A stretch of DNA of 64,000 nt. Origin: Flavobacteriales bacterium. Its GTDB lineage: Bacteria; Bacteroidota; Bacteroidia; Flavobacteriales_E; Vicingaceae. The notes under the pieces were generated by a model that had not been told where the DNA came from, searched no databases, and saw only the letters and a program-made list of their open reading frames with translations. Shown in pieces: positions 1,320 to 4,702 of the stretch. Position 1 is the stretch's first letter; every line of letters begins with the position of its first letter. Made by a program: the position numbers and the translations under genes. The stretch lies in contig CAJPFH010000003.1 in assembly GCA_905339165.1 (NCBI GenBank), positions 1 through 64,000 on the forward strand. Direction: 5' to 3'.

Positions 1320-2375
1320 ATGGTATTTCTTAAACATATATATTTTTTCATTATAACCGTTTTTGGCGTATTTCAATTACACTCTCAAATTAATTTAGTT
1401 TACAATGCTAGCTTTGAGGATACGATTGGTTGTGCTGATTGGATGAGAATAAATTATGCCAAAGGTTGGTTTCAACCACAAACACCGCACTTAGATCCTG
1501 GAGGAAGTTCTGATTTATTTCATGAGTGTTCATCCATGTTAGGAGTCCCAAGTAGCATTTGGGATGGCTATCAATACGCTAAAACTGGTAAAGCCTTTTC
1601 TGGAATACTGCTTTATTTAAAACCAAAATTATTCCCTGAGGCATATCGGTATAGGGAATATATTGAAACTAAGTTAATAATGCCCTTAAAAAAGGATGTT
1701 ATCTATTGTATTGGTTTCCATGTCAATTTATCTAATTTCTCAATTTATGCTGTTTCAAATATTGGAATATACTTATCAAATGATTCCACTCTAAGTAGTT
1801 TTCCTAATTATGGTGGCGGAATGCCATATTATACACTACCCTATAAGCCTCAACTTGAAAATGATTTTGGGAATATAATTAAAGATACTTTAGATTGGGT
1901 TAAGCTAGAATGGGAATATAAGGCGGTTGGCGGAGAGCAGTTTATCACTATTAGCAATTTCTATGATGCCCAATACACTTTTTTTGAACCTACATATACA
2001 AACACACCAGGATCGGAAGCAGGGGCATACTATTACATCGATGATGTTTTTGTTTACCGCTGCAACGATACCCTGCCGCCTCCTATACCCAAAGATACCG
2101 CTTACCTAAACCTGCCCACCGCCTTTTCGCCTAATGCAGATGGAGAGAACGATGTATTTAGAGTACTCGGTACAAAGTACGTGCAAAGCATAGAGCTGCG
2201 GGTGTATAACCGCTGGGGGCAAGAGGTGTTTTACAGCAACCAAAAAGAAATAGGTTGGGATGGCAACTTTAAAGGGCAGCCCGCCCCCACAGGGGTGTAT
2301 GCCTACACACTGGTAGCTACGCTGCCAAACGGAGAGATAATAACAAAAAAAGGAAATGTTACTTTGAAGAGGTGA
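1320..2375 (+). CDS. Secreted protein with gliding-motility-type (CHU_C, T9SS type B) C-terminal domain
   Basis: A 351-residue protein with an N-terminal signal peptide ending around LHSQ (residues 1-23). The middle (about 24-245) begins with NLVYNASFED and has a jelly-roll-like composition often seen in Bacteroidota surface proteins. I cannot name its ligand. The last ~85 residues match the type B sorting domain: PTAFSPNADGENDVF, then LRVYNRWGQEVF, GWDG, GVYAYTLV and a basic end (KGNVTLKR). Such proteins leave by the type IX secretion system. It starts 12 bp after the upstream T9SS gene, so the two may be co-transcribed. The link to gliding is only the historical domain name; function is unknown. 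Confidence 0.88.
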   Translation: MVFLKHIYFFIITVFGVFQLHSQINLVYNASFEDTIGCADWMRINYAKGWFQPQTPHLDPGGSSDLFHECSSMLGVPSSIWDGYQYAKTGKAFSGILLYLKPKLFPEAYRYREYIETKLIMPLKKDVIYCIGFHVNLSNFSIYAVSNIGIYLSNDSTLSSFPNYGGGMPYYTLPYKPQLENDFGNIIKDTLDWVKLEWEYKAVGGEQFITISNFYDAQYTFFEPTYTNTPGSEAGAYYYIDDVFVYRCNDTLPPPIPKDTAYLNLPTAFSPNADGENDVFRVLGTKYVQSIELRVYNRWGQEVFYSNQKEIGWDGNFKGQPAPTGVYAYTLVATLPNGEIITKKGNVTLKR

Positions 2376-2423
2376 AAGTGGAAATCTTGAAATTTTAAAT
2401 TTTGAAAGGCAAAACAAAAGAAG

Positions 2424-2580
2424 GCCATTGCGAACTAAAAAGATGCTGAAACAAGTTCAGCATGACGCAATGCGAGGAGAAAAATAGTCATTCCGAACTT
2501 GTTTCGGAATCTAAGCAAAGTTTTTTATTCTCCTCTGTCACTTCGAGTAGCCCGAAGCATGAGGGCGTATCGAGAAGCAG
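2424..2580. repeat. Cluster of three hairpin (REP-like) intergenic repeats
   Basis: Three palindromic units sit in tandem in a gene-free stretch. Unit 1 (2442-2466, plus) reads GA-TGCT-GAAACAAGTTC-AGCA-TGAC. Unit 2 (2487-2511, minus orientation) reads GA-TTCC-GAAACAAGTTC-GGAA-TGAC. The core and the TGAC foot are identical, while the 4-bp stem differs with compensating changes on both sides. Unit 1 is enclosed by CATTGCG/CGCAATG (2426-2432, 2466-2472). Unit 2 is enclosed by GAGGAGAA/TTCTCCTC (2474-2481, 2528-2535). Unit 3 (2537-2577) is an imperfect palindrome that also ends in TGAC on the minus strand. The layout, a palindrome with a fixed tetranucleotide foot, is that of REP elements; copy number elsewhere is unknown. 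Confidence 0.75.
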
Positions 2581-2601
2581 TGTAGTTTTTAAAAACATTT
2601 T

Positions 2602-2657
2602 TTAAGCAAGTTTTTTTTCTTTTTAGCGGAAAAAAAGAAAAGAAAAAAGTTGCTTAA
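2602..2657. repeat. Long inverted repeat with pyrimidine/purine arms
   Basis: TTAAGCAA (2602-2609) is repeated inverted as TTGCTTAA (2650-2657). Between them, a T-rich left arm (2611-2624) faces an A/G-rich right arm (2630-2648) around the centre AGCGG. The predicted hairpin has an 8-bp perfect foot and an imperfect poly-T/poly-A upper stem. It could act as a bidirectional terminator between the T9SS gene and the next gene, or be a small repeat element. The rest of 2376-2803 shows no ORF or RNA gene; a weak -7-like box (TAATTTCG, 2770-2777) precedes the next gene. Confidence 0.6.
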
Positions 2658-2803: not shown

Positions 2804-4702
2804 ATGAGCGACCAAATTAAACACGAGTGCGGCATTGCTTTAGTTCGCTTACTAAAGCCTCTCGATTATTATATAAACAAGTACGGAACGGCATTTTATG
2901 GATTAAACAAGTTGTATTTGTTAATGGAAAAACAGCACAATCGTGGGCAAGATGGGGCAGGAGTAGCCAATATAAAATTTGATGTAGAACCGGGTCAACG
3001 CTACATTAGCAGATACAGGTCAAATGCAGCAAACCCCATAAAGGATATTTTTACCAGAATAAATGCAAAATTTAAAACAATACATTCTAAAAACCCCGAA
3101 CTACTTAAAGACGCAAATTGGCTTAAGGCCAACGTGGGCTTTACGGGCGAACTAAGTCTTGGCCATTTACGCTATGGCACATACGGGGGCAATAATATAG
3201 AAAATTGCCACCCGTTTTTACGTCAAAATAACTGGATGACACGCAATTTGGTAGTGGCCGGAAACTTTAATCTTACCAATGTGGAAGAACTTTTTGGTTT
3301 GTTGGTGAGTTTGGGCCAACACCCTAAAGAGGTTTCCGATACCGTAACCGTAATGGAAAAAATCGGTCATTTTTTAGACGAAGAAAACGAAAAACTTTTT
3401 AAAGAGTATAAAAAAGCCGGTTATGCCAATGCTCAAATTTCGCACATGATTGCAAAAAACTTAGATGTGCAAAATATTCTAAAAAACGCAGCCTCCGATT
3501 TTGATGGGGGATATGCTATGGCAGGTTTAATTGGGCATGGCGATGCATTTGTACTACGCGACCCCAACGGCATTCGCCCCGTGTTTTATTTTTTAAACGA
3601 TGAGGTAGCCGTTGTGGCAAGCGAACGCCCAGCCATACAAACAGTTTTTAATCTCAAAATAGAAGAAATTAAGGAACTAACTCCGGGTCATGCCCTTGTT
3701 ATTAAAAAAGATGGAAATGTTTCGGAAAAGCAAATTATAGAACCCGGCAAAAAAAACTCTTGTTCCTTTGAACGAATTTATTTTTCGCGAGGAAGCGATA
3801 AAGATATCTACGAAGAAAGAAAAAATTTAGGCCGAAATGTTTGTACAGAAGTATTAAAAGCCATCAATAACGATATAAAGAACAGTGTTTTTTCTTTTAT
3901 TCCGAATACAGCCGAGGTGGCGTTTTATGGCATGATTAAAGGCCTGGAAGCATACTTGAACGAAGTAAAACTGAAAAAAATTGTTGCTCTTGGTTCAAAT
4001 CCGAATGAAGAAAAAATAAAAGAAATTCTAGCCAAGCGTGCTCGCGTAGAAAAAATTGCTATCAAAGATGCCAAGCTACGCACCTTTATTTCGCAAGATG
4101 ATGGACGAAACGAAATGGTTTCTCATGTGTACGATATTACTTACGGTACCGTTAAAGAAACCGATAACCTTGTAATACTTGACGATTCTATTGTAAGAGG
4201 CACAACCCTAAAAGAAAGTATCCTAAAAATATTAGACAGGCTAGGACCCAAAAAAATAGTGGTGGTTTCTTCCGCACCGCAAATACGCTACCCCGATTGT
4301 TATGGAATCGATATGGCCAAGTTGGGCGATTTTATTGCGTTTCAGGCAGCTATCGAATTGTTAAAGCAAAACGGAAAACAAGAACAAATTGATTTCGTGT
4401 ACAAAAAGTGTAAAGACCAACAGCATCTTCCAAAAGAACAAGTAAAAAATTATGTGAAAGAAATTTATGCCCCATTCACAGCCACCGAAATTTCAAAAAA
4501 AGTATCGGAATTGCTTACTCCAAAAGAAATGAATGCAGAGGTAGAAATTATTTTTCAAACCATAGAAGGATTACATGCTGCCTGCTCTAATCATACCGGA
4601 GACTGGTATTTTACAGGAAATTATCCAACCCCAGGGGGAAATAAAGTGGTAAACACTTCTTTTATAAATTATATAGAAGGCCGTAATCAAAGAGCATATT
4701 AA
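2804..4702 (+). CDS. PurF-like class II glutamine amidotransferase / phosphoribosyltransferase
   Basis: A 632-residue homologue of amidophosphoribosyltransferase, which makes phosphoribosylamine from PRPP and glutamine in the first purine step. Cys9 (HECGIA) would become the N-terminal nucleophile after removal of an 8-residue propeptide. GATase landmarks follow: QHNRGQDGAG (about 44-53), LGHLRYGTYGG and DPNGIRP. The PRPP loop LDDSIVRGTT is intact at 459-468. The protein is longer than usual PurF (about 470-510). The segment that normally carries SGxxAAxG and KNRYxGRTFI is altered to NTAEVAFYG and KDAKLRTFI. It may be a Bacteroidota paralogue rather than the main PurF, so I give no symbol. 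It leads an apparent unit with tyrS (21 bp gap). Confidence 0.8.
   Translation: MSDQIKHECGIALVRLLKPLDYYINKYGTAFYGLNKLYLLMEKQHNRGQDGAGVANIKFDVEPGQRYISRYRSNAANPIKDIFTRINAKFKTIHSKNPELLKDANWLKANVGFTGELSLGHLRYGTYGGNNIENCHPFLRQNNWMTRNLVVAGNFNLTNVEELFGLLVSLGQHPKEVSDTVTVMEKIGHFLDEENEKLFKEYKKAGYANAQISHMIAKNLDVQNILKNAASDFDGGYAMAGLIGHGDAFVLRDPNGIRPVFYFLNDEVAVVASERPAIQTVFNLKIEEIKELTPGHALVIKKDGNVSEKQIIEPGKKNSCSFERIYFSRGSDKDIYEERKNLGRNVCTEVLKAINNDIKNSVFSFIPNTAEVAFYGMIKGLEAYLNEVKLKKIVALGSNPNEEKIKEILAKRARVEKIAIKDAKLRTFISQDDGRNEMVSHVYDITYGTVKETDNLVILDDSIVRGTTLKESILKILDRLGPKKIVVVSSAPQIRYPDCYGIDMAKLGDFIAFQAAIELLKQNGKQEQIDFVYKKCKDQQHLPKEQVKNYVKEIYAPFTATEISKKVSELLTPKEMNAEVEIIFQTIEGLHAACSNHTGDWYFTGNYPTPGGNKVVNTSFINYIEGRNQRAY

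Follow-up and report, generated by a model that had tools for sequence, protein, structure and literature searches.

Small GIY-YIG nucleases that probably home into and spread CGTC-tagged palindromic repeats

Palindromes tagged with the tetranucleotide CGTC are widespread short repeats of bacteria and include dRS3 of Neisseria and some of the palindromic elements of Rickettsia. They were defined as the CGTC-tagged REP superfamily by Di Nocera, De Gregorio and Rocco in 2013 (PMC3733652), who reported no dedicated transposase. The filamentous prophage Nf1 integrates at the neisserial dRS3 by means of its own integrase (PMC3898611). Here, we describe a nuclease gene that recurs between CGTC palindromes and is missing from the corresponding sites of relatives, which makes the spread of these repeats directly testable with small proteins and short DNA substrates. 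If our reading is true, a superfamily described in 2013 gains the enzyme that it lacked, and REP-type repeats evolved alongside nucleases of two unrelated folds, HUH in the RAYTs and GIY-YIG here.

The window, i.e., the whole stretch of 64,000 nucleotides that was analyzed, belongs to a 3.16-Mb genome of a Flavobacteriales bacterium (G000). Two hairpins occupy an intergenic region of it, flanked by a purF-like gene and by one whose product carries a type IX secretion C-terminal domain, at the positions and on the strands that an earlier note, made from the letters alone, had assigned to them (Table 1). Both follow the formula GA-NNNN-GAA-ACAAG-TTC-N'N'N'N'-T-GAC, whose 8-bp stem consists of an A-T pair, four variable pairs, and the pairs G-C, A-T, and A-T, closed by a loop of 5 nt. 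The note had described a fixed core and a fixed foot. The foot stands, as GTC(A), but the 11-nt “core” is simply the top three base pairs of the stem plus the loop. The foot is CGTC(A) in unit 1 (minus strand) and AGTC(A) in unit 2 (plus strand), and the two units form an inverted heterodimer with the feet pointing inwards, towards the partner. The units fold at -9.4 and -8.7 kcal/mol (z of -3.3 and -2.8), and the dimer can also fold as a single long hairpin through its complementary cores (z of -4.8). The imperfect palindrome that the note had placed at 2537-2577 is real but represents another family of repeats, of which the genome has about a dozen further stand-alone partial copies. No Rfam family was found at the window site, and the reading as a structured RNA was dropped on this ground.

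Table 1. Features of the window around the hairpin dimer (positions in the window)
Feature	Position	Strand	Remarks
Gene with type IX secretion C-terminal domain	1320-2375		CHU_C / TIGR04131
BIME-like mosaic repeat block	2375..2625	.	includes the dimer and the third palindrome
CGTC-type REP unit 1	2442..2466	+	stem TGCT/AGCA (8 bp once the invariant pairs are counted), loop ACAAG
Dimer spacer	2467..2486	.	20 nt, GCAATGCGAGGAGAAAAATA; alike in most copies, inverted in the copy G000:C6
CGTC-type REP unit 2	2487..2511	-	stem TTCC/GGAA
Third palindrome, imperfect, TGTC foot	2535..2577	+	separate repeat family GTCACTTCGAG...TATCGAGAAG
purF-like amidotransferase gene	2804-4702		

These units fit the CGTC-tagged superfamily, as a type with an 8-bp stem and a 5-nt loop similar to CGTC-2. 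Stem and loop lie within the ranges of the superfamily (8-9 bp, with complementary A/T at positions 1 and 2, and 4-5 nt). The foot of the superfamily, CGTC or TGTC, is seen in unit 1 and in the third palindrome, and of 158 units, 84 have C and 63 have T beside GTC(A). The 3' tail reads CT(T/A) in the window's genome and CCA in proteobacterial copies, the superfamily having mostly CCA. The absence of a transposase, reported for the superfamily, also holds: neither a Y1 nor an IS110 partner was found in the genomes and stretches searched, and the associated GIY-YIG proteins are a non-transposase family. The units are not GTAG REPs, since their foot is GTC(A) instead of GTAG or GGAG and no RAYT gene examined is flanked by the same REP.

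The earlier note had also proposed that the stems change in a compensatory way. The window's genome has only two types of stem, TGCT/AGCA and TTCC/GGAA, plus one hybrid, so that two copies alone are no proof of covariation. We therefore turned to 38 distinct units from the whole class, found with a pattern that leaves the stems free, which makes pairing a fair test. Pairing is kept in 93.1% of the cells, and 37 cells have changed on both sides against 11.7 in shuffled sets (0 of 500 shuffles reached this value); the covariation score is 0.308 against 0.121 (again 0 of 500). Hence, the compensation is genuine at the scale of the class. The first pair is A-T in all 38 units and the second is T-A in 23. 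The stems form a limited set of types, not free variation.

Searching the genome with any 4-mer stem gave 15 exact and 21 near copies, and none with the reversed pattern. The 21 copies make up 10 inverted pairs and one single unit, and nine of the pairs combine TGCT with TTCC as heterodimers. In our reading, the remaining pair (C6:192184-192255) has the segment between its cores, made up of the spacer and both inner arms, inverted with respect to the flanks; one unit is re-paired through the differing outer arm (TGCT, not TTCC) and the other is a mispaired hybrid. A family of REP-like elements with a fixed GTCA foot, as the note had suspected, is thus borne out by many intergenic copies, inverted pairs, and covarying stems. 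The surrounding block has a near full-length second copy (C28:14192-14435, 90% identity) and about 10 partial copies in the genome, with homology extending to about 2730 in some of them. Inverted REP pairs thus share one intergenic block with other repeat motifs, as in BIMEs. Upstream of purF in a congener (G001), the dimer is kept and the segment on one side is swapped for a different pair of CGTC type; the junction lies only a few bases away from the hairpin. The mosaic lies repeatedly just 3' of genes for type IX C-terminal domains (window 2183-2375; loci L007, L010, L011, and L003), and its copies also have the end of this domain in common, which suggests, from the sequences, that recombination may occur between loci carrying such genes.

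Beyond this genome, the pattern is present in 56 of 396 Bacteroidia genomes and is thus not confined to the window. Its distribution is patchy, with up to 134 copies per genome, and exact copies number 15 in the window's genome and 3 in a congener, and most members of the family have none. Records of Sphingomonadales, Treponema, Gastranaerophilales, and Patescibacteria also show this core, combined with a few types of stem; several of these records are metagenome-assembled genomes (MAGs), so that contamination is possible for some. Some copies form regular arrays, one with alternating stem types and orientations (L211:147-869) and another head-to-tail with a spacing of about 124 bp (G309:C2:561464-561860, L458). 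The hairpin was also seen on 105 stretches of IMG/VR contigs labelled viral (L263-L367), several of which measure 17-18 kb and may be pieces of gene-transfer agents or of chromosomes instead of phages.

The window's genome holds the first clue to a partner. On contig C45, an ORF encoding a 99-aa GIY-YIG protein (PF01541, E value of 1.6e-16) lies between two directly repeated hairpin dimers, and its last codons and stop extend into the repeat. A second GIY-YIG gene, on C132, is flanked on both sides by palindromes of the window's third type. A profile search of hairpin-bearing loci found GIY-YIG genes near hairpins in G015, G115, G247, G300, G373, L147, L169, and L255. Hairpins stand on both sides of the gene in L255, the single exact hairpin copy of G015 adjoins the gene, and in a Kerfeldbacteria MAG (L169) the gene lies 7-9 bp from a hairpin on one side, at a contig end. 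In L193, the gene has no hairpin inside 400 bp. In other Bacteroidia, only 3 of 60 sampled sites had a GIY-YIG gene near the hairpin. This excess of solo hairpins is as expected for a non-autonomous form, and equally so for a hitch-hiking nuclease.

Since these loci had been chosen for having hairpins, the independent test is a protein search of plasmids, which yielded 15 independent sites by protein similarity alone, a small set in which some records are mislabelled chromosomes. Matches were found in Sphingobium, Novosphingobium aromaticivorans, Azospirillum lipoferum, Sinorhizobium, Rhizobium, and Neisseria, and several of these are hosts of CGTC REPs according to PMC3733652. CGTC hairpins lie within 100 bp on both sides at 7 of the 15 sites and on at least one side at 9. 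In contrast, among 60,000 random intervals from 150 kb of three of the same replicons, none had them on both sides and 1.7% on at least one. No CGTC hairpin was found inside 100 bp at the other six sites (Planktothrix, Spirosoma, R. tumorigenes, Sinorhizobium C101, N. aromaticivorans pNL2, and Photobacterium, the last with a hairpin array 174 bp away). Most often, the foot points away from the gene and the tail towards it, at distances of 26-61 bp on the 5' side of the gene and about -15 to +50 bp on its 3' side. At each site with hairpins, these are of the type of the host group: CGTCATCCTCGGGC.. in Rhizobiaceae, CGTCACCCCGGGC.. in Sphingobium, and CGTCATT/CCCCGCG.. in Aeromonas, Neisseria, and Azospirillum. 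In N. gonorrhoeae, the gene sits inside a dRS3 array. The residues of the GIY-YIG motif are intact in the alignment, and intact genes closely flanked by hairpins on both sides occur in Bacteroidota as well as in Alpha-, Beta-, and Gammaproteobacteria. The gene tree (FastTree) is loosely ordered by hairpin type, with weak support. The GIY-YIG protein had no match in a similarity search against viral contigs, and we found no mention of a link between GIY-YIG proteins and REPs in the open-access literature.

Sites with and without the block can be compared at otherwise collinear positions. In A. lipoferum 4B, a dimer-gene-dimer block interrupts sufB-sufC. In A. ramasamyi, A. oryzae, and Azospirillum sp. 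B510, whose flanks are 95-97% identical, the two genes are contiguous, about 90-130 bp apart and with no REP. This implies that the REPs and the gene arrived together, and the case requires insertion of a whole block, for which plain homing into an existing REP does not account. Between gltA and lpxB, pSymB of S. meliloti Ak57 has REPs with one truncated and one full GIY-YIG copy, and Sinorhizobium sp. M103 has a lone REP. The C45 site is occupied by one solo dimer and no gene in the congener (contig C18), and so is a paralogous site of the window's genome (C30). As with homing nucleases, the gene is thus present or absent at otherwise identical sites. The copies of Ak57 stand in tandem with REPs between them (L383:800-1960), a possible snapshot of amplification.

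Could a different enzyme move these repeats? The earlier note had pointed to RAYT (Y1, HUH) transposases, which would act in trans as they do on GTAG REPs, and the look-up that it called for did find two RAYT genes in the window's genome (NCBIfam NF047646, above cut-off); Y1_Tnp hits are present in 16 of 18 CGTC-rich genomes. Neither RAYT gene is flanked by the window's hairpins, however: each is framed by an unrelated palindrome of its own that occurs only there in the genome, and many RAYTs of the 18 genomes show private palindromes too. None of the 56 Y1_Tnp hits in these genomes has close two-sided CGTC hairpins, and G309 and G045, with 26 and 9 copies, have no such hit. Nor did any Y1 gene adjoin the hairpins in 223 hairpin-bearing stretches (1.77 Mb), with a profile that recovered 23 of 23 held-out controls. 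With the same negative in PMC3733652, we regard mobilization by RAYTs as highly improbable. The two RAYT genes (L018:4122-4761 on C49 and L019:5830-6820 on C4) are of the Bacteroidetes type, about 180 aa long, with SHIH/NHMH and YIHNNP motifs. Two apparent links to Y1 genes were judged fortuitous: in G267 (L066), the hairpins on either side are about 500 bp away from an IS200 pseudogene, and in G115 (L059), there is one hairpin at a contig end and the Y1 gene has its own terminal palindrome on both sides. The latter gene (L059:1000-2060) is framed by CACGACCT..AGGTCGTGG with the CGTC hairpin nearby, and remnants of this palindrome lie beside a CGTC pair elsewhere (L104). IS110/Piv recombinases, an idea taken from dRS3 as a prophage target, were discarded, since 17 of the 19 CGTC-rich genomes searched lack their domain PF01548.

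A more serious competitor, although we think it unlikely, is that the GIY-YIG genes encode selfish homing nucleases in their own right, which land in CGTC REPs already present, the latter having spread otherwise. This would account for the lone REP or solo dimer at two of the three kinds of empty site (G001 and G000:C30; Sinorhizobium M103) and for the many REPs without a nuclease nearby. It sits poorly with the Azospirillum sites, where REPs and gene came jointly, with the recurrence of a GIY-YIG partner at several quite different types of CGTC hairpin, and with the fact that no other enzyme candidate was found. There is very little chance that no dedicated enzyme is involved and that the hairpins are functional RNA elements, i.e., terminators or stabilizers of mRNA, multiplied by ordinary duplication. 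The patchy presence, the insertions of blocks at clean sites, and the many units without a U-tract argue against this, and covariation is expected equally of DNA hairpins. Such a role would agree with the terminator-like scores of both window hairpins on the minus strand and with a simple ORF-based count, in which the hairpins are rarer between divergent genes (9/75 against 70/290, p = 0.027) and commoner between convergent ones (p = 0.029). Yet, the intergenic bias and the likeness to terminators may be consequences of where insertions are tolerated, and a role in RNA may be a secondary effect.

Hence, we consider it quite probable that the CGTC REPs of the window are the non-autonomous, multi-copy form of a mobile element made of a GIY-YIG gene between REPs. 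The GIY-YIG nuclease is, from its genomic associations, the best candidate for their missing partner. We infer that a protein of about 95-110 aa would recognize the CGTC hairpin or the REP dimer and cut or nick there. As in homing, repair from a copy bearing the nuclease would then insert the gene at the REP, with the flanking REPs as homology. Recombination between the flanking dimers could remove the gene and leave a solo dimer. A directly repeated dimer around the gene, with a solo dimer where it is absent, is what either homing into a REP or its recombinational reversal would produce, and the order of gain and loss that we favor is accordingly conjectural. Occasional insertions of the whole block would found new sites. 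In this manner, the nuclease would drive its own copying and, at a lower rate, the spread of the repeat, and the same enzyme may have founded the solo REPs. More generally, we lean towards the view that CGTC REPs and small GIY-YIG nucleases are one widespread two-part mobile system, a counterpart of RAYTs and their REPs built on an unrelated nuclease fold. Its hosts would be Bacteroidota and Alpha-, Beta-, and Gammaproteobacteria, and one Patescibacteria contig has the arrangement on a single side of the gene.

How does this putative system compare with those already described? With the CGTC-tagged REPs of PMC3733652, it shares the CGTC/TGTC foot, an 8-bp stem opening with A-T, the 5-nt loop, inverted heterodimers, the intergenic location, and Bacteroidetes among the hosts. 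It differs in the GIY-YIG gene between the repeats, where that paper found no dedicated transposase, and the tail in the window's genome is CT(T/A), against CCA. The neisserial dRS3, a CGTC-1 REP, is a known target of recombination, and Nf1 relies on an integrase of its own. RAYTs with their GTAG REPs (REPtrons), REPINs, and BIMEs offer the same tagged inverted palindromes, many solo copies, mosaic blocks, and a nuclease gene flanked by repeats. They differ in the foot, GTAG against CGTC, and in the fold of the nuclease, HUH/Y1 against GIY-YIG. Finally, GIY-YIG homing endonucleases and the small UPF0213 proteins (PDB 1zg2) have the same catalytic domain and the same presence or absence at collinear sites. 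In contrast to homing endonucleases, the genes described here are free-standing, of about 95-110 aa, and lie between REPs with no intron, and their products are proposed to target a repeat dispersed over the genome, not a single allelic site.
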